Source of the DNA: Thermoleophilaceae bacterium
Lineage (GTDB): Bacteria; Actinomycetota; Thermoleophilia; Solirubrobacterales; Thermoleophilaceae
Assembly (NCBI GenBank): GCA_014534235.1
Contig: JACVRW010000005.1
Span: 1-61,604, forward strand
Length of the DNA stretch: 61,604 bases
Direction of reading: 5' to 3'
Made by a program: the position numbers and the translations under genes. Below, in pieces: positions 45,821 through 55,053 of this stretch; the first letter of the stretch is position 1, and each line of letters starts with the position of its first letter. A model generated the notes under the pieces. The model made no database searches, had not been told where the DNA came from, and worked only from the letters and a program-made list of their open reading frames with translations.

Positions 45821-47557
45821 CTACGCGCCGCAGCCCAGCGTCAGGTCCAGGTAGCGCGTGCCTTTTACGCGGTGGTCGAAGTGCCACCACTCGCGCCAGT
45901 AGTTCGAGAAGCCGAAGCGCTCCATCGCCCGCTTGAGTGTGAGCCGGTTGCGCAGGAGGCGCCCGCTCGCGTCGAGGGTGTGCGCGCCGGGGCCGAGGGC
46001 ATCGAAGCGGCCCATGCGCACCCGGTGGCCGTCGCTCAGCCGCACGAGCGTCAGGTCCACCGCGCTGCCCAGGTTGTGGTTGCTGCGGCGGGCGAGGTAC
46101 GTGCCGACGAGGTGGCCGCGACCGGTGCGCTCCGCCCACCTCACGAGCGCGCGCGTGGCCCGTGCGGGTCGGTAGGCGTCGAGGATCAGCAGGCCGAGGC
46201 CCCGCCGGCGCAGGTTTCGCTGCACCCTTCCCAGGTCGCGGGCGGCCGGCTCGAGCAGCAGCGCCCACTCCCGGCAGTAGCCCGGAAGGCGGCGGCCGGT
46301 GATGTTGCGTGTCGTGCGATAGACGAGCTCGGTGCTGACATCGGGAGCGAAGCGGTGGACGTCCGCGAGCCCCGCGCGGCGGTGGGCCGGGGTGCCCGCC
46401 TGGTCCGGGGGCGGGGCGTCGCCGGGGATCGGCCCGGCGCCGACGTCCGCGGCTTGGCGCGCCCGCCGCCCGAATATCCGCGCCGCCACGCCGCGTAGCG
46501 TTGCGGTCCCATAGGCGTGGGAGGGGTTGCCGTCCGTGAGCACGGCCATCGAGAGCCGGACGGGTCCGCGCTCGAAGGCGGCGGCCTCGTGCACCAGCGC
46601 GCCGCGGCTGGTTGGGCGCCAGCCGCCCTTGAAGAACGTCCGAAAACCGGCGGCCAGCGAGTAGCGCGAGAACCCCCAGCGCTGCCAGGAGACGATCGAT
46701 GAGAGCAGCCGGCGAGCGTAGCGGCGTGAGCGCGGTGGGACCAGGCGGTCGAACACGTAGAAGAAGCGCGCCTGGTCGGCGGCGCTGAAGTACGCCGCGG
46801 CCCAGGAATGAGCCACCGTGAAGCTGCGCATGCCGGCACGCCGAGCGAGCCGGCGGAGGGCGCCGTCGCCGACGCGGCGGTAGACGAGGGTGGCGCGGGC
46901 GTTGTCCGACACGGTGATCATGGGGCCGAGCAGCAGGCGGTCCAAGGTGGTCGGCATCCGGTTGCCGATCCTTCGCAGGTACGCCACGAGCAGCATCGCC
47001 TTGACCACGCTCGCGGAGACGTACCGCCGCCCTGGCGCGAAGCCGTGGAGCCGCCCGCGCGAGTCGATCAGGGCCCATGAGTTCACCCCGGCGCGGGACG
47101 CGATATAGCGTCGGGCAGCCGCCAGCCTCGAGCGGGGCGGGAACAGCGCCGGCTGAACCCGGACGCCCATCGTGCATCCCCGACCCGGCCTGACCACCAC
47201 GCGCACCACCGTCCTGCCGCGCGGCAGCACCCGGAGCGGGCGCGCGCAGGCGTCGGTCGGTGGGTCGAGCGCCGCACAGCCCGCGGAACAGGGGCGCTGA
47301 AAGCTCGTCACCCGGTAGCGGCCCGCCGATAGGGGCTGTCGCAGGCGGAGGCGGCGACGCTGGCGGAACTCGCGCTCGAGGACCACCGCGCCGCGGGCGT
47401 CCCTCACGCTGACGTACGAGAAGGAGCCCTCGACGTACGTGCCGCGCGAGGTGTCGACGACCTGCCGGTAGTCGAGCGTCCCTCGTGCCGCCGAGGCCCC
47501 CGCCGGAACGAGGAGCGCCACCACGAGGCACAAAAGGGACGCCCGGACGAGCCGCAT
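45821..47557 (-). CDS. Exported serine beta-lactamase-like/VanX-type dipeptidase fusion
   Basis: 578 aa. A signal peptide (1-23, ending ASA) is followed by a strand-rich segment with paired cysteines. Next is a penicillin-recognising domain (about 150-365) with S183-V-V-K186, S217-D-N and K310-G-G, the three motifs of class A beta-lactamases and S11/S13 transpeptidases. After a Pro-rich linker comes an M15D domain (about 395-578): LLILDAYRPARATRALVRWA, S492-N-H494-NLGSAVD501 and E556-W-W-H559, the zinc/catalytic motifs of VanX D-Ala-D-Ala dipeptidase. It should act outside the membrane on peptidoglycan stems or fragments. A TACCCT box ends 9 bp before the ATG. Confidence 0.88.
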   Translation of the reverse strand: MRLVRASLLCLVVALLVPAGASAARGTLDYRQVVDTSRGTYVEGSFSYVSVRDARGAVVLEREFRQRRRLRLRQPLSAGRYRVTSFQRPCSAGCAALDPPTDACARPLRVLPRGRTVVRVVVRPGRGCTMGVRVQPALFPPRSRLAAARRYIASRAGVNSWALIDSRGRLHGFAPGRRYVSASVVKAMLLVAYLRRIGNRMPTTLDRLLLGPMITVSDNARATLVYRRVGDGALRRLARRAGMRSFTVAHSWAAAYFSAADQARFFYVFDRLVPPRSRRYARRLLSSIVSWQRWGFSRYSLAAGFRTFFKGGWRPTSRGALVHEAAAFERGPVRLSMAVLTDGNPSHAYGTATLRGVAARIFGRRARQAADVGAGPIPGDAPPPDQAGTPAHRRAGLADVHRFAPDVSTELVYRTTRNITGRRLPGYCREWALLLEPAARDLGRVQRNLRRRGLGLLILDAYRPARATRALVRWAERTGRGHLVGTYLARRSNHNLGSAVDLTLVRLSDGHRVRMGRFDALGPGAHTLDASGRLLRNRLTLKRAMERFGFSNYWREWWHFDHRVKGTRYLDLTLGCGA

Positions 47558-47622: not shown

Positions 47623-49368
47623 ATGATCGCTCGGCTCGAACGTGACATCCTCGACCGCCGGACCTACGGCCGCATCGCGTACCTGCTGCTGGCGCTGCCT
47701 CTCGGCATCGTCGAGTCCACCTTCCTCGTAACGGCGATCTCGTTCGGAGTCGGCACGGCCGTGACCCTGATCGGGATTCCGGTCCTCATCGGGACCGTCT
47801 ACGCGTGGCGGTGGATGGCCGGCGTCGAGCGCTCGCTGATCGGGGCGCTGACGGGCATCCACATCCCGAGCCCCTACCGCGCCGAGCCGGCCGGGGCGTC
47901 GTGGTGGGACGGGCTGAAGGCACGACTCGCCGATCCCGCGACCTGGAAGGACTTGCTGTTCCTGCTGCTCCAGCTCCCGCTCGGCATCGCGTCCTTCGTC
48001 ATCGTCGTCTGCGTCCTATGCGCGTCGCTGGGGTCCGTGCTCGCGCCGGTCTACTTCTGGTCAGTACCGGACGGCATCGACCTGTGGCTGCTCGAGGTCG
48101 ACACGCTCCTTGAGGCGCTCGCGCTCGTCCCCCTGGGCGCGGTGTGGATCGTCCTCGGCATCCCGGCCCTGGGCGCGCTCGGCCGCCTCTACGGGGAGCT
48201 CGCGAGCCTGCTGCTCGGTTCGAACGTCGACCCCAAGCTGACGGCGGAGGTGTCCGATCTCCGCGACGCCCGGTCGCGGATCATCGCCGCCGCCGACGCC
48301 GAGCGCCGCCGCATCGAGCGCGACCTGCACGACGGCGCCCAACAGCGCCTCGTCGCCCTCGCGCTGACGCTGCGGATGGCCGAGAAGCGGGCCGCCGACG
48401 GCGACCCCGACACCGCGGTGCTCGTGCGCCAGGCCGGAGACGAGGCGGGGCTCGCGCTCGATGAGCTGCGCGATCTGGCGCGTGGGATCCACCCGGCGAT
48501 ACTCACGAACAGGGGGCTCCGCGCCGCGCTCGACGACCTCGCCGCCCGCGCGACGCTGCCTGTCGAGATCGTCGCTGCACCGGCGGAGCGCCTCCCCGAG
48601 CCCGTCGAGGCGGCGGCGTACTTCGTGGTCTCGGAGTCCCTGGCGAATGTCTCGAAGCACGCGCACGCGACCCGCGCGGAGGTGTCCGTGGCGGTGGGCG
48701 AGGGACGCGTCACCGTCACCGTCGGCGACGACGGCGTGGGCGGCGCCGACCCCGAAAACGGCTCCGGGCTCCAGGGCCTCGCCGACCGGGTAGGCGCCGT
48801 CGACGGCCACTTGACGGTGCACTCCCCGCCGGGAGAGGGGACCCGTGTGGTCGCGACGATCCCGCTAGCCGCGCCCCCGGTGCCGGTCATCGACCCGTTG
48901 CCGCCGGAGGCGCCCCGCATCCTGCCTGACGACGTCGCGGCCGAGCGCCAGCGGGCGCGGGTGGGCCGGCTGCGCACGCGGCTCGCCGTGCTCGGCGGAC
49001 TGGGCCTTGTGTGCGTGGTCGTGTGGGCGCTCACGAGCGGGGGGTACTTCTGGCCGGTGTGGCCCCTGCTCGGGCTGGGTCTCGTCGCCGGCGTGGACGC
49101 CTCGCGCGTCCTCGCGGGCCCGCCGCTCCGCCAGTCCGAGGTGAGCGACGGCCGCGAGCCGCGTGAGCTGCGGAGGCGACGCCGGCTGCGGGTGGAGGCC
49201 AGCGCGCTCGGGGTCGTCAATCTGTTCCTGATCGGGGTCTGGCTCGCCGCCGGCGGCGGTTACTTCTGGCCCGTCTGGCCGCTGCTGGGCTCGGGCGTGG
49301 CCGTGGGGCTGAAGGCTCTCCGGTGGCCGGCCGTCGTGCGTGACCGGCTGCTCGATCAGGCGTCGTAG
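47623..49368 (+). CDS. Membrane sensor histidine kinase, NarL-class, no partner nearby
   Basis: 581 aa. The N-terminal membrane sensor (about 15-195) has four to five helices of the putative-sensor type found in actinobacterial kinases. The HisKA_3 dimerisation helix has ERRRIERDLHDGAQQRLVAL with the phosphoacceptor His236. The HATPase domain follows, with VVSESLANVSKHAHATRAEV, VGDDGVGGADPENGSGLQGL and PGEGTRVVATIP. After about 430 there are two copies of a 2TM-like module, each with GGYFWPVWPLLG (about 470 and 545). No response regulator is adjacent. It overlaps the convergent glnA 3' end by 13 bp. Confidence 0.9.
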   Translation: MIARLERDILDRRTYGRIAYLLLALPLGIVESTFLVTAISFGVGTAVTLIGIPVLIGTVYAWRWMAGVERSLIGALTGIHIPSPYRAEPAGASWWDGLKARLADPATWKDLLFLLLQLPLGIASFVIVVCVLCASLGSVLAPVYFWSVPDGIDLWLLEVDTLLEALALVPLGAVWIVLGIPALGALGRLYGELASLLLGSNVDPKLTAEVSDLRDARSRIIAAADAERRRIERDLHDGAQQRLVALALTLRMAEKRAADGDPDTAVLVRQAGDEAGLALDELRDLARGIHPAILTNRGLRAALDDLAARATLPVEIVAAPAERLPEPVEAAAYFVVSESLANVSKHAHATRAEVSVAVGEGRVTVTVGDDGVGGADPENGSGLQGLADRVGAVDGHLTVHSPPGEGTRVVATIPLAAPPVPVIDPLPPEAPRILPDDVAAERQRARVGRLRTRLAVLGGLGLVCVVVWALTSGGYFWPVWPLLGLGLVAGVDASRVLAGPPLRQSEVSDGREPRELRRRRRLRVEASALGVVNLFLIGVWLAAGGGYFWPVWPLLGSGVAVGLKALRWPAVVRDRLLDQAS

Positions 49369-50831
49369 TAGAGCGCGAACTCCCACGGGTGCGGTCGCAA
49401 CCGCACCTCGTCGGCCTCCTCCCGGCGCTTGTGACGGATCCAGGTCTCGATCAGGTCCTCGGTGAAGACGCCGCCCTTCAGGAGGAAGTCGTGGTCGGCC
49501 CGGAGCGCGTCGAGCGCCTCGTCGAGCGACGCCGGGACGTGCTCGATCCGGGCCAGCTCCTCCTCGGGCAGCTCGAACAGGTCCTCGTCGACCGGAAGCC
49601 CGGGATCGATCCGGTTCTGGATGCCGTCGAGGCCGGCCATCAAGAGCGCCGAGAACGCCAGATAGGGGTTCGCGGTCGGATCCGGCGGGCGAAACTCCAC
49701 GCGCTTCGACTTGGGCGACGACGAGTAGACCGGGATCCGGCACGCCGCCGAACGATTGCGCTGCGAGTACACGAGGTTCACCGGCGCCTCGTAGCCCGGA
49801 ACCAGCCGGCGATAGGAGTTCGTGGTCGGCGCGCAGAAGGCCATCAGCGCGCGGCCGTGGGCGAGCAGCCCGCCGATGAAGTTCAGAGCCTCGCGTGACA
49901 GCAGGCCGTAGCCGCCGAAGTCGTACATCACGTTCTCGCCGCCCTGCGACAGCGAGATGTGCACGTGCATCCCGGAGCCGTTCTCCTCGAACACCGGCTT
50001 GGGCATGAACGTGGCGGTCTTGCCGGCCTGAGCCGCCACGTTCTTCACCACGTACTTCTGCAGCTGGAGCTGGTCGGCCATCTTGAGGAGCGGCTGGAAG
50101 CGGACGTTGATCTCCGCCTGCCCAGCCGACCCCACCTCGTGGTGGTGGAACTCGCAGGGGATGCCCATCGACTCGAGCGTCGTGACCATTCGCGCCCGGA
50201 GGTCGCCGTGGGTGTCGCCCGGAGCGGCCGGGAAGTAGCCCTGCTGCGAGCGGAGCTTGTAGCCGAGGTTCGGCTGACCGTTCCGCTCGGCGCCGAACCC
50301 CTTGCCCCGGTTCCAGTAGCCCTCCTCCGAATCGACCTCGTAGAACGCCCTGTTCGCCGCCTGGTCGAACGCCACGTGCTCGAAGACGTAGAACTCCGCC
50401 TCCGGCCCCATGAGGCAGGTGTCCGCGATCCCGGTGTCGACGAGGTGGCGCTCCGCCTTCACCGCCACGTAGCGCGGGTCGCGCGTGTACGGCTCGCGGG
50501 TTATCGGGTCGATCACGTCGCATACGATCGAGATGGTCTGCTGCTCGTGGAACGGGTCGATGAGCGCGGTGGCGGGGTCCGGCACCAGCACCATGTCTGA
50601 CTCGGAGATCTCCTGGAACCCGCGGATCGAGGACCCGTCGAAGCCGAGCCCCTCGGTGAACGCGTCCTCGTCGAGGGCGTGAATCGACAGGCCGAGGTGC
50701 TGCCAGGTGCCGGGAAGGTCGGTGAACTTGAAGTCCACCATCCGCACGCCGTGCTCCTGCGCCAGCGCCAGAACGTCCTTGGCCTCGGCGACGCGCCCGC
50801 CGACGAAGCGCTCGACGGTCGGCGGCGTCAC
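49356..50831 (-). CDS. glnA: Type I glutamine synthetase lacking the adenylylation Tyr
   Basis: 491 aa. It shows LGFDGSSIRGFQEISESDMV, the metal Glu in CLMGPEAEFYVFE and FHHHEVGSAGQAEINVRFQP, and the latch SGMHVHISL. The substrate flap contributes NSYRRLVPGYEAPVNLVYSQ with NRSAACRIP, and EFRPPDPTANPYLAF closes the active site. The region of the regulatory tyrosine reads EDLFELPEEE, with Phe419 in place of the adenylylated Tyr397 of E. coli. It makes glutamine from glutamate, ammonia and ATP. GTG start overlapping the flotillin stop; last gene of amt-glnB-unknown-flotillin-glnA. Confidence 0.96.
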   Translation of the reverse strand: MTPPTVERFVGGRVAEAKDVLALAQEHGVRMVDFKFTDLPGTWQHLGLSIHALDEDAFTEGLGFDGSSIRGFQEISESDMVLVPDPATALIDPFHEQQTISIVCDVIDPITREPYTRDPRYVAVKAERHLVDTGIADTCLMGPEAEFYVFEHVAFDQAANRAFYEVDSEEGYWNRGKGFGAERNGQPNLGYKLRSQQGYFPAAPGDTHGDLRARMVTTLESMGIPCEFHHHEVGSAGQAEINVRFQPLLKMADQLQLQKYVVKNVAAQAGKTATFMPKPVFEENGSGMHVHISLSQGGENVMYDFGGYGLLSREALNFIGGLLAHGRALMAFCAPTTNSYRRLVPGYEAPVNLVYSQRNRSAACRIPVYSSSPKSKRVEFRPPDPTANPYLAFSALLMAGLDGIQNRIDPGLPVDEDLFELPEEELARIEHVPASLDEALDALRADHDFLLKGGVFTEDLIETWIRHKRREEADEVRLRPHPWEFALYYDA

Positions 50832-52180
50832 TTGATCTCCTCCGCCGCACCGTCCGCCCCGCCGGCGTCACCCTGTACCGCCGGGATGCGCTTCGCGAGC
50901 TCCTCCAGCTTCGTGCCGGTGAGCGCCTCCACCACCGCCGGCAGCTCCGCCATGACCTGGGTCACGTCGCGGGTGATCTTGTGGGCGCCCGGACCCGCGC
51001 CGTTCTCACCCCCGCCGATCATGACGATCTTCTCGGTCTGGGCGAGCGGCGCCGAGACCGCCCCCGCCAGCTCGGGCAGGATCTCGAGCACGCGGTCGGT
51101 GATCGCCGCCTCGTTGTAGCCCTTGCAGGATTGCGCCTTGGCCGCCATGGCCTCGGCCTCGGCCAGGCCGCGCGAGCGCAGGGCGTCGGCCTCGCCGGCC
51201 CCGAGCGCGGCCGCCCGCTCTCGCTCCGCTTCCGCGATCTGCATGATCTCCTTCGCCTTCGCGAGCGCCGGCTCGACGATCTCCGCGGTCAACTCGCGCT
51301 TGCGCCGCTCTACCTCCGCCTGCATCAGCTCGATCGCCTTCTGGCGCTCGACGATCTCCACCTGGAGCTGCGCAGCGCGCACCTGCTGGGAGGAGATCGC
51401 CTTCTGGAGCTCGTAGGAGAGGTCCGCCTCCGCCGAGGCCCTCATGCCCTCGGACTTGAACCTGGCCTTCTCCACCTCGTAGTCGCGCCGCGACTGCTCG
51501 ATCGCGAGGTCGGCTTCGTAGCGGGAGGCCTTCGCCTCGCGCTCGGCGGCGGCCTCGCCGCGGATCGCGTCGCGCTTCACCTGCGCGGTCCGGGGCCGGC
51601 CGAGCGCCTCGATGTAGCCCTGCCTATCGCCGACGTTCCTGACCGTGAGCGAGACGATCGTCAGGCCCATCAGCTCGACGTCCGGCTGCGCGAGCTCGCG
51701 CACCTGCTCGACGAGCCGCTGGCGGTCGCGGTAGATCTCCTCGATCGAGAGGCTGCCGATGGCACTGCGCATGTGGCCTTCCACGGCCTGCATGGCGGTG
51801 CGGACGATGTCCTCCTGGCGCCGGGACAGGAACTGCTCGGCGGCGCGTTCGATACCCTCGTCGCTGCCGTCGATCTTCACCATGCAGACGCCGTCCGCCT
51901 GCACGGGCACGCCGTGCATGGAGTACGTCTCGCCGGTGCGCACGTCGAACTGCATCAGCTCGAGCGTCAGCCGCTGGACGCGCTCGCGGAACGGCCGCAC
52001 GTAGGTGCCGCCGCCGCGGACGATCCGGTAGCCACGGCCGCCGCCCCGACGAGACCGGCGCCCGGAGATGATCAGCACCTCGTTCGGGCCGACCTTTGTG
52101 TACTGGTGCGCCCAGACCGCAAAGGCGATGACGAGCAGAGCGGCGATTACCGAGCCGCCGATGATGAGCGCTAGCTCCAT
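50828..52180 (-). CDS. Flotillin-like SPFH membrane scaffold protein
   Basis: 450 aa. A single N-terminal membrane helix (3-25, ALIIGGSVIAALLVIAFAVW) is followed by an SPFH domain (about 35-190: VLIISGRRSRRGGGRGYRIV, MHGVPVQADGVCMVKI, VELMGLTIVSLTVRNV). A long Ala/Glu-rich coiled coil runs to about 370 with EA repeats (QAEVERRKRELTAEIVEPAL), then a C-terminal oligomerisation region. Flotillins scaffold membrane microdomains. It has no NfeD partner, the usual companion, but is coupled to glnA (4-bp overlap) and to the unknown gene upstream (10-bp overlap). Confidence 0.93.
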   Translation of the reverse strand: MELALIIGGSVIAALLVIAFAVWAHQYTKVGPNEVLIISGRRSRRGGGRGYRIVRGGGTYVRPFRERVQRLTLELMQFDVRTGETYSMHGVPVQADGVCMVKIDGSDEGIERAAEQFLSRRQEDIVRTAMQAVEGHMRSAIGSLSIEEIYRDRQRLVEQVRELAQPDVELMGLTIVSLTVRNVGDRQGYIEALGRPRTAQVKRDAIRGEAAAEREAKASRYEADLAIEQSRRDYEVEKARFKSEGMRASAEADLSYELQKAISSQQVRAAQLQVEIVERQKAIELMQAEVERRKRELTAEIVEPALAKAKEIMQIAEAERERAAALGAGEADALRSRGLAEAEAMAAKAQSCKGYNEAAITDRVLEILPELAGAVSAPLAQTEKIVMIGGGENGAGPGAHKITRDVTQVMAELPAVVEALTGTKLEELAKRIPAVQGDAGGADGAAEEIK

Positions 52181-53301
52181 GCTGCGTGAACCTCCTCCTG
52201 TGCGCGGATCGAGTCGACGCCGAGGCGCTCCGCGCGGGGCGCGTCGGCGTAGTGGATCTCCACCTCGGTGGTGGAGCGGAGAAACTCGGCGCCGGCCAGG
52301 TGGTGGCCCACCTGCACGGCGAGCGCGTTCTCGTCCGGAGCGAGGAACACGTTGATCCCACGGTCCTCGAGCGCCACGGCCACGTCGCCGCCGCCGGTGC
52401 GGCGGACCTCGAGCTGCAGGCGGGTCGACTCCTCGTCGGTGAGATGTGCGAGCAGGCGGACGCCCGCGTCGTCGGTGCGCTCCTCGGCGGCCGCCCAGAT
52501 CTCCGGGCGGACCTCGCTCGCGTGGAGGCCCCAGGCCGCCACCTGACCGGCCCGGCCCAGCTCAGCCTGCAGGTAGCGGATCAGGGCGATCACATCCGGC
52601 GCGGCCGGGGCGGTGTCGTCCTGCGCCGGCCCGGCGGCCCGTCGGCGCTGCCGCCGCCGGAGCTGAGGAGCCTGCCCGACCACGCCGACCACCGGGCCGT
52701 CCGGCGACACACCCTCCACCGAAGGGATCCACAGGTCGGGGTCGGAGTGCGAGCGGAACACGGCCGCCGGGGGCACCCGCCGCAGGTCGCGCGGACGGAC
52801 CACGCCCACCGTGACCTCGTCGGCATGGCCCACGTAGCCGGCCGACTCCAGGTAGCGGCAAACCTGGCGCCGGATCCCGGCGAGGTCGTGGGCCCGCAGG
52901 CGAGGACCGCCGAGCACCGGCGACGTGAGCCACCCGCCCTGCTCGTACACGGGCAGCTCGTAGTCCATGGCCGGCGCGCGGAAGTAGCAGAGCGGCAGTG
53001 TGCGGCCGGGCGCGATCGTCTCGAGGACCCGGGCCACCTTGGCCTTGAGCGCGTAGACGTTGGCGGCCTCGAGCGTCTGCCCGGCAACCTCGCAGCAGTG
53101 GATCTCCTTGAGGATCGGGTGAGGAGCGGGGTTGACACGGCGACCGACCGGGATCCGGGCCGTCTCGCCGCCGCCGAAGCCGGCCCTGACGCCGAGCCGG
53201 AACGCGTAGGCGTGCTCGGACGTGCGCTCCAGGTGGATGGGGACTGGCTCGTCCTCGCCGCGGTCGGCGATCACGCCCCTGATCCAGGATCGAAGCCCCA
53301 C
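52171..53301 (-). CDS. Unrecognised 376-aa protein in the PII-flotillin operon
   Basis: 376 aa, soluble, no membrane helix or signal peptide. The first half (residues 20-140) is strand-rich with IHLERTSEHAYAFRLGVRAG, PAPHPILKEIHCCEVAGQTL (HCC at about 68-70) and LCYFRAPAMDYELPVYEQGG. A basic stretch (RRRQRRRAAG, about 214-223) separates it from a C-terminal part with VIALIRYLQAELGRAGQVAA and a strand pattern near VAVALEDRGINVFLAPDENA. I recognise no family. It is encoded between glnB (no gap) and the flotillin (10-bp overlap), so a role linking PII signalling or ammonium transport to the membrane scaffold is a fair guess only. Confidence 0.85.
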   Translation of the reverse strand: MGLRSWIRGVIADRGEDEPVPIHLERTSEHAYAFRLGVRAGFGGGETARIPVGRRVNPAPHPILKEIHCCEVAGQTLEAANVYALKAKVARVLETIAPGRTLPLCYFRAPAMDYELPVYEQGGWLTSPVLGGPRLRAHDLAGIRRQVCRYLESAGYVGHADEVTVGVVRPRDLRRVPPAAVFRSHSDPDLWIPSVEGVSPDGPVVGVVGQAPQLRRRQRRRAAGPAQDDTAPAAPDVIALIRYLQAELGRAGQVAAWGLHASEVRPEIWAAAEERTDDAGVRLLAHLTDEESTRLQLEVRRTGGGDVAVALEDRGINVFLAPDENALAVQVGHHLAGAEFLRSTTEVEIHYADAPRAERLGVDSIRAQEEVHAAWS

Positions 53302-53670
53302 TCAGTAACCCCAGCCCACGGGCGCCTCGTGGCGCACGGTCTCCTCCCCGCGCTCCCCGGTGCGGATCCGCACCGACTGCTCGACGGCGTATACGAAGAC
53401 GCGCCCGTCGCCGGTCTCCCCGGTGTAGGCGGCCGCCACGATGGCCTCGACCGCCTTGTCCACCACGTCCGCCGGGACCACCGACTCCACCTTGATCTTC
53501 GGCAGCAGGGAGATGTTCGCCCGCGATCCCCGGTACTGCTCCGTGTAACCCTTCTGGCGCCCGCAGCCCATCACCTCGCTGACAGTCAGCCCGGAGACGC
53601 CGAGCTCGTCGAGGGCGTCCTGTACCTCCTGGAGCCGCTCCGGCCGGATGATCGCCTCGATCTTCTTCAT
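53302..53670 (-). CDS. glnB: Nitrogen regulatory PII protein without Tyr51
   Basis: 122 aa trimeric PII. KKIEAIIRPERLQEVQDALD; the T-loop reads GRQKGYTEQYRGSRANISLL; the C-terminal signature is TGETGDGRVFVYAVEQSVRI followed by RTGE. Position 51, the Tyr uridylylated in proteobacteria or adenylylated in other actinobacteria, is Ala. Ser49, the site phosphorylated in cyanobacterial PII, is present. Lys58 and the ATP/2-oxoglutarate residues are kept, so ligand sensing should remain. It lies 6 bp downstream of amt, its usual partner. Confidence 0.95.
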   Translation of the reverse strand: MKKIEAIIRPERLQEVQDALDELGVSGLTVSEVMGCGRQKGYTEQYRGSRANISLLPKIKVESVVPADVVDKAVEAIVAAAYTGETGDGRVFVYAVEQSVRIRTGERGEETVRHEAPVGWGY

Positions 53671-53676
53671 CTCGCG

Positions 53677-55053
53677 TCAGCCCTCCTGCGTCCGGGTGGA
53701 CAGCCCGATCGGCACGGGTCGCGGCGTGGGCCGCTGGGCCGGCGCCGCGGGCTGGTGGTACTCGGAGCCTGGGACCGGCATGAACTGCTCCGGGTAGCCC
53801 CACATGCCGTGTTCCACGATGTCCAGGCCGTAGCGCTCCTCCTCGGGCTTCACCCGCAGGCCGTATGTGGCCTTGATCAGGAAGAAGACGAGGAAGCTGA
53901 CCGTGAACACGGCCACGAACGCGGCGGCGACGCCGAGCGCCTGCACTCCGAGCTGGTCGAACGAGCCGGTGTAGAACAGCCCGCCGTTGCCGATCGCGTT
54001 CAGCTCGGCGAGGCGCGGCGACGCGAACAGCCCGCACGACAGCGTGCCCCAGATTCCGGCCAGCCCGTGCGAGGACAGGGCGCCGACCGGGTCGTCGATC
54101 ACCTTGTCGATCAGGATCACGCCGGTGACCACGATCACGCCGGCCACCAGGCCGATGATCGGCGCCGCCCAGTACTCGACGTAGCCCGAAGGCGCGGTGA
54201 TCGCCACTAGCCCGGCGATCGCGCCGTTGCCGGTCATGCCGATGTCCCAGGTGCGCGTGAGGAGGTAGATCGTGGCCATGGCGCCCAGCACGCCGGCCGC
54301 CGCGGCCAGGTTCGTCACGACCATCACCTCGGCGAAGCGCCCGCCGATCGCCCCCAGCGTCGAACCCGGGTTGAAGCCCTGCCAGCCGAACCAGAGGATC
54401 AGCACGGCGAGTCCGACCAGCGGCATCGAGTGCCCCGGTATGACGTTCGGCTTCCCGTCGCGGCCGTACTTGCCCTGGCGCGGCCCGAGCAGGAGCAGCG
54501 CGGCGAACGCCCCGGTGGCCCCAATCAGGTGCACGACGGTCGACCCCGCAAAGTCCTGCATGCCGAAGCTCGCCTGCAGCCAGCCGCCGCCGAAGATCCA
54601 GTGGCTGATGATCGGGTAGATGAGCGCGCTGAAGACGACCGCGTAGATCAGGTAGGCGCCGAACTTGATCCGCTCGAGCGTGGTGCCCCACACGATCGCG
54701 AGCGAGACGGCGCAGAAGACGAACTGGAAGAAGAACTTCGCCGGCACGGTGGCCGAGCTGAACGCCATCGCCGGGAACAGGTCGCCGTTGCTCGTGCCGA
54801 GGAAGGTGCCCTCCGTCCCGGCGAACCAGCCCGCCCCTCCGAAGGCCAGCGCGAAGCCCACGCCCCAGTAGCAGAGCGCGGCGACCGAGAGGTTCGCGAG
54901 CACCTTCGGCACCACCGTGCCGGCGTTCTTCATTCGCGAGAAACCGACCTCCAGCAGAAGGAAGCCGGCCTGCATGAACAGCACGAACACGGCGGCCACG
55001 ACCACCCAGGTGGTCTCGATGGCCGGGATGGCGTCGTTGAGCGTGGGTTCCAT
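53677..55053 (-). CDS. amt: Ammonium transporter
   Basis: 458 aa, eleven membrane helices. It contains the twin conduction-pore histidines in AGSTVVHLIGATGAFAALLL and LSSHGLAGIWGTLSCGLF, the signature VGFSRMKNAGTVVPKV, and DIGMTGNGAIAGLVAITAP. The C-terminal cytoplasmic tail (EEERYGLDIVEHGMWGYPEQ) contains the conserved helix that couples subunits and contacts PII. First gene of the nitrogen operon. ATG at 55053. Promoter not clear. Confidence 0.95.
   Translation of the reverse strand: MEPTLNDAIPAIETTWVVVAAVFVLFMQAGFLLLEVGFSRMKNAGTVVPKVLANLSVAALCYWGVGFALAFGGAGWFAGTEGTFLGTSNGDLFPAMAFSSATVPAKFFFQFVFCAVSLAIVWGTTLERIKFGAYLIYAVVFSALIYPIISHWIFGGGWLQASFGMQDFAGSTVVHLIGATGAFAALLLLGPRQGKYGRDGKPNVIPGHSMPLVGLAVLILWFGWQGFNPGSTLGAIGGRFAEVMVVTNLAAAAGVLGAMATIYLLTRTWDIGMTGNGAIAGLVAITAPSGYVEYWAAPIIGLVAGVIVVTGVILIDKVIDDPVGALSSHGLAGIWGTLSCGLFASPRLAELNAIGNGGLFYTGSFDQLGVQALGVAAAFVAVFTVSFLVFFLIKATYGLRVKPEEERYGLDIVEHGMWGYPEQFMPVPGSEYHQPAAPAQRPTPRPVPIGLSTRTQEG

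Follow-up and report, generated by a model that had tools for sequence, protein, structure and literature searches.

A conserved five-gene unit for ammonium assimilation

Five adjacent genes of a Thermoleophilaceae bacterium, encoding an ammonium transporter (Amt), a PII signal protein, a protein of no recognised family (here unk), a flotillin and a second glutamine synthetase (GS), very probably constitute one functional, co-inherited unit. The order amt-glnB-unk-flotillin-glnA recurs in every one of the seven genomes in which unk was found, across three families; this is more than chance, and no accident of a single genome. The unit is well supported because several lines agree: linkage is strict, the flotillin belongs to a clade restricted to these clusters, a congener has lost three of the genes jointly, the cluster GS has traits of its own, and Amt and PII carry cluster-specific tails.

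All five open reading frames lie on the minus strand of the window, by which is meant the whole 61,604-nt stretch of DNA analysed (Table 1). From amt onward they are separated by gaps of 6 and 0 nt, then by overlaps of 10 and 4 bp; a sequence-only reading had given five same-strand genes with just these spacings, and they prove exact to the base on coordinate re-check. The GTG start of unk stands directly 3' of the glnB stop. On the promoter side the operon is flanked by genes for a YbaK-type tRNA-editing protein, a wax-ester synthase/DGAT and DNA polymerase IV; beyond glnA comes a histidine kinase gene on the opposite strand. Elsewhere in the window, positions 45821-47557 encode a predicted protein that joins beta-lactamase-like and D-Ala-D-Ala dipeptidase (M15) domains in a single chain. 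Transcript ends that would part unk and flotillin from amt-glnB or from glnA, a possibility raised by that first reading, find no counterpart in the sequence: no terminator-like site was seen on the operon strand. A scan of the sequence found no sigma-70 promoter for the operon, and no riboswitch or other Rfam RNA was found near it. We infer that the five genes are co-transcribed.

Table 1. The five genes of the cluster, in order of reading, with positions in the window
Feature	Position	Strand	Evidence
amt, ammonium transporter, 458 aa	53677..55053	-	Pfam PF00909, 351 bits; TIGR00836
glnB, PII signal protein, 122 aa	53302..53670	-	Pfam PF00543, 107 bits
unk, unknown soluble protein, 376 aa	52171..53301	-	no family match; 7 homologues, all in the same cluster type
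flotillin (FloT-like), 450 aa	50828..52180	-	Band_7, 78 bits
glnA, second type I (GSI-beta) glutamine synthetase, 491 aa	49356..50831	-	TIGR00653, 630 bits

Distribution and linkage

The unk gene was sought in 61 relatives, in 399 genomes of the class and 397 of the phylum, and then in 232 genomes of the order. It is present in 7 of the 232 (five genera, three families), always in the arrangement given above; these seven, nearly all fragmented drafts, are the whole sample behind the linkage. Five carriers, including the window genome, belong to one family (G000, the window; G016; G022; G023; G027), and the other two to two further families (G386, G044). Outside the order, unk was not found in the class and phylum samples. 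The five genes are readable in one piece in G000, G016, G022, G027 and G386; a contig break falls inside unk in G044, with both halves in the expected arrangement, and in the flotillin-glnA stretch in G023, with the remainder on another contig. An alignment-based scan of genome contigs gave four unk matches, which are G022, G023, G027 and G386 again (metagenome-assembled Actinobacteria); a single-sequence query in the same scan gave no match, nor did a scan of viral contigs. The 4-nt overlap of flotillin and glnA is found also in G016, G027 and G022. At this junction G386 (locus L025, 4725-5413) has an apparent frameshift, probably an assembly error.

The flotillin is as restricted as unk. Its clade (69-80% identity) occurs in 6 of 151 order genomes, exactly the six sampled unk carriers; all other flotillins are ~30-35% identical to it, and none of 38 other flotillin loci in the order and phylum adjoins Amt, PII, GS or unk. 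The genus of G044 also offers two distant flotillin genes in tandem (L120, G773:C186, 452-2896), ~30% identical to the window's and with no nitrogen genes adjoining. The functional link first proposed, of unk and flotillin to amt-glnB-glnA, is thus well supported: both occur only there, across three families, and the pair was seen away from nitrogen genes in none of the order, class and phylum genomes.

One could suppose that a chance insertion placed unk and flotillin between glnB and glnA and that linkage has kept them there, given that the canonical amt-glnB-glnA operon works without them; it does so even within G044, which carries an ordinary amt-glnB-glnA operon with no flotillin (C27) beside the flotillin version. 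Passengers of this kind would hardly hold an exact order across three families whose proteins are 49-69% identical, nor keep their frames overlapping and dN/dS at ~0.06; this account is disfavoured as highly improbable. In a few soil actinobacteria, it seems, the genes are passed on and disappear as a set.

The flotillin

Solved flotillins oligomerise at the membrane. The window protein has an SPFH/Band 7 domain over residues 29-214 (PF01145), and its residues 30-428 align with residues 5-419 of human flotillin-1 (phmmer E 4e-70); its N-terminus is a hydrophobic anchor, and its full C-terminal coiled-coil region is co-linear with that of solved flotillins. It scores 332 bits against the 700-bit cut-off of the NCBIfam FloT equivalog model; by these matches it is a flotillin relative, not a FloT equivalog. 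At its membrane end the flotillin cage measures 32 nm across, narrowing to 19 nm at the other; its height is 22 nm (PMC11260169). Membrane oligomers or cages of the window protein would be expected from its family. The usual NfeD partner is indeed missing, as had been noticed at the outset: there is no NfeD gene in the operon, and of the NfeD genes that lie elsewhere in the window genome two have other SPFH genes as neighbours (C15 and C174).

The flotillin and unk might serve general membrane organisation or quality control, for example in protecting Amt, and share an operon for nitrogen starvation without anything being assembled. Many genomes do have flotillins with no nitrogen genes nearby, and a stabilising effect of bacterial flotillins on unfolded proteins in membrane microdomains has been reported (PMC11222466). 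If its role were general, one would expect this flotillin outside the operon too, yet the window clade is found only there, and the tails of Amt and PII change where unk, flotillin and glnA have been lost (in G001, below); co-expression without assembly is accordingly rated a distinctly improbable account.

The unknown protein

The 376-aa product, left unrecognised on first reading, stays so: HMM searches give no Pfam or NCBIfam match, and no homologue was found in PHROGs or the PDB. The NfeD domain (PF01957) matches none of the seven members. As far as these searches reach, unk is an undescribed, new protein family. It is predicted from sequence to be soluble, with no membrane segment and a pI of 6.1. 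It evolves fastest of the five genes and is under purifying selection, with a dN/dS between G016 and G023 of 0.06, similar to that of the neighbouring genes. An internal duplication joins about residues 136-181 to 320-366 (hhalign score 27.2; 60 shuffles reached 16.0 at most); a three-repeat architecture was rejected, as hhalign supports two repeats only.

A model of the whole protein has low confidence (pLDDT 49), and its fold matches are meaningless. The C-terminal part is modelled at pLDDT 67 and gives no fold match with E below 0.001; the best is the ESX chaperone EspG1 (5vba_B, E 0.03, TM 0.30), with no Pfam match to accompany it, and the likeness to EspG may serve as a weak lead only. 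A weak match among the class genomes (G261) was dismissed as a chance one, the reading frame being adenylate-kinase-like by reading of its sequence. The homologues in G016 (L009, 7650-8810) and G023 (L010, 1634-2794) lack an ATG, GTG or TTG around the conserved N-terminus; in both, the glnB stop is followed by a CTG, and this or another start has to be supposed, which points to non-canonical or coupled initiation. The unk gene of G022 has a gap, possibly an assembly error.

Transporter and PII tails

The window Amt spans the full Ammonium_transp domain (PF00909 positions 2-399 of 399). In all seven clusters it ends in a Pro-rich C-terminal tail, HGMWGYPEQFMPVPG(S/Y)EYHxPAxPAxRPxPRPxPxG, and the PII C-terminus is likewise -GWGY in 7 of 7; the 3 other Amts and 12 other PIIs inspected have different tails. 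This pattern makes the two tails candidate docking motifs. The Amt tail is the stronger clue of the two: the codons for GWGY stand just before the start of unk, and their conservation may reflect use as the unk ribosome-binding site.

The window PII has the P-II domain and, in alignment to PDB 2eg1, the RTGERG C-terminal motif; its T-loop is without Tyr51 (RGSRANISLLP versus RGTEYVIDFLP in 2eg1). Loss of this residue was discarded as a trait of the cluster, since Tyr51 is absent from other PIIs of the order too. The PII search covered six cluster genomes and in five of them detected no PII other than the cluster one (genomes 84-95% complete).

A second glutamine synthetase without the usual adenylylation Tyr

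The cluster GS has both GS domains (Gln-synt_C 434 bits, Gln-synt_N 112 bits), passes the 429-bit cut-off of the type I GlnA model TIGR00653, and has as its best PDB match, over the full length, GlnA1 of M. tuberculosis (a GSI-beta enzyme; 623 bits). The window genome carries a housekeeping GS as well (G000:C170), which is only 42% identical to it, and the relatives carry GS that is only ~42% identical to the cluster enzyme. The cluster glnA is, to judge by these comparisons, a second GS of GSI-beta type.

In the GSI-beta family the Tyr of DLYELP is the adenylylation site. Alignment of the window enzyme to GlnA1 puts Phe in its place (DLFELP), and Phe stands there in 6 of 6 readable cluster enzymes (window, G016, G023, G027, G044 and G386); the cluster glnA of G022 ends before the site and is outside this count. 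The Tyr is kept in the separate GSI-beta of G013, in a second copy in G027 (C70) and in a GS of G024. Residue for residue, then, adenylylation of the cluster GS at the usual position would not be possible. The separate enzymes in G013 (L117, G013:C193, 6299-10900) and G027 (L118, G027:C70, 2249-6958) are a different GSI-beta, 62-68% identical over pieces, and lie near a distant Amt (28-32%); the G027 C70 copy is frameshifted.

GlnE and GlnD were not detected in twelve genomes (G000, G001, G002, G003, G005, G013, G016, G022, G023, G027, G044 and G386), by a search that finds both in E. coli, Caulobacter and C. glutamicum. The adenylylation/uridylylation cascade seems to be absent from the lineage. 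Its loss cannot be counted as a trait of the cluster, as both proteins are also undetected in relatives without it; for the same reason the Phe may be an effect, not a cause.

These observations invite a reading in terms of regulation rather than scaffolding: unk would bind GS, PII or both and regulate them in place of GlnE/GlnD control, the flotillin would do no more than anchor or stabilise unk, and nothing would be channelled. The two undetected enzymes, the exchange of Tyr for Phe in GS and the PII without Tyr51 all suit a substitute regulator, as does the position of unk directly after glnB; PII is known to bind GS directly in a methanogen (8tge). The same losses, of GlnE/GlnD and of Tyr51, are found in relatives without unk, and did not need unk to occur. 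Retention of a whole flotillin is also left unexplained, and regulation by unk is judged an unlikely account of the cluster.

Joint loss in a congener

A congener with the same synteny (G001) keeps the genes for DNA polymerase IV, DGAT and YbaK, and amt and glnB; what it lacks is the trio unk, flotillin and glnA. The glnB gene is followed by ~590 bp, which by reading of their translation resemble a fragment of a D-Ala-D-Ala carboxypeptidase gene, and then the same histidine kinase and peptidase as in the window. The remnant amt-glnB (L116, G001:C265, 6380-8719) is itself altered: amt has an in-frame TAG, the Pro-rich tail of Amt is degenerate, and PII ends in GWGH versus GWGY. The amt branch measures 0.19 in G001 and 0.06 in the window, the glnB branch 0.18 and 0.02 respectively, so that the G001 branches are 3-9 times longer. 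The simplest reading is that cluster-type amt-glnB lose constraint once unk-flotillin-glnA is gone; this co-decay is that of one draft MAG, in which the in-frame stop could be an assembly error.

A proposed membrane assembly for Amt, PII and GS

The best explanation, held tentatively and at a little short of an even chance, is that the flotillin holds Amt, PII and GS in an assembly for which unk serves as adaptor. That is, a canonical amt-glnB-glnA operon would have had a flotillin and an undescribed protein built in; the flotillin would oligomerise at the membrane and mark or enclose a patch holding the Amt trimer; PII would dock on Amt as in AmtB-GlnK; unk would be a soluble adaptor bringing the dedicated GSI-beta dodecamer, perhaps PII too, to the patch; finally, ammonium entering the cell would meet a GS exempt from control by adenylylation. 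Physical assembly, the adaptor role of unk and the channelling of ammonium are what we infer from the genes. A bolder form of the same idea, rather unlikely as it stands, would give a single metabolic step its own flotillin cage or patch, with Amt-PII inside it and the new adaptor family recruiting the non-adenylylatable GS, to form a membrane-bound ammonium-to-glutamine metabolon.

The notion of a membrane patch with channelling, already put forward by the sequence-only reading, draws circumstantial support from the cluster-specific tails of Amt and PII, the joint loss in G001 and the GS that should escape adenylylation. Each pairwise contact has a precedent. The PDB matches include Amt-GlnK complexes (2nuu, 2ns1) and a GS-GlnK1 complex from a methanogen (8tge); for a membrane protein that holds the accessory GS of its operon there is heliorhodopsin (PMC9529153), and for a flotillin linked to a single membrane protein there are the flotillin-associated rhodopsin (FArhodopsin) clusters (PMC10308929). 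With the size of the GS dodecamer taken from general knowledge, a flotillin cage could in principle be large enough for Amt-PII and the dodecamer. To our knowledge Amt and PII need no scaffold elsewhere, which counts against the assembly; so does the low-confidence model of unk without a significant fold match.

Bacterial flotillins are called scaffolds, but only for few of them has a defined client of their own been named. Here likely clients (Amt, PII and GS) and a new partner family emerge from gene order, co-occurrence and joint decay, so that five genes suffice for a direct test of the scaffold idea. If true, it would also show how GS can be organised where, as in this lineage, GlnE and GlnD are undetected.

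Comparison with known systems

A literature search found no report of the arrangement amt-glnB-unk-flotillin-glnA; several known systems share parts of it. In the FArhodopsin clusters of marine bacteria a conserved arrangement likewise couples a flotillin gene, the sole flotillin copy of the genome, with the gene of a single membrane protein; that protein is a rhodopsin, and the accessible part of the source describes no Amt, PII and GS unit (PMC10308929). Flotillin-NfeD pairs resemble the window in giving the flotillin an operon partner; in the window unk holds the neighbouring position, and NfeD is found beside other SPFH genes. In Actinobacteria bacterium IMCC26103 the gene of a membrane protein stands beside that of an accessory GS: heliorhodopsin binds and regulates the GS of its own operon, with a light receptor instead of flotillin and unk, and with no amt-glnB in the operon as described (PMC9529153). 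The canonical amt-glnB(glnK)-glnA operon has the same transporter, PII and GS in the same order; it differs in the tails of its Amt and PII, and the example in G044, without flotillin or unk, has a housekeeping-type GS ~40% identical to the cluster enzyme. That operon is already known; the flotillin and the new family are the new part.
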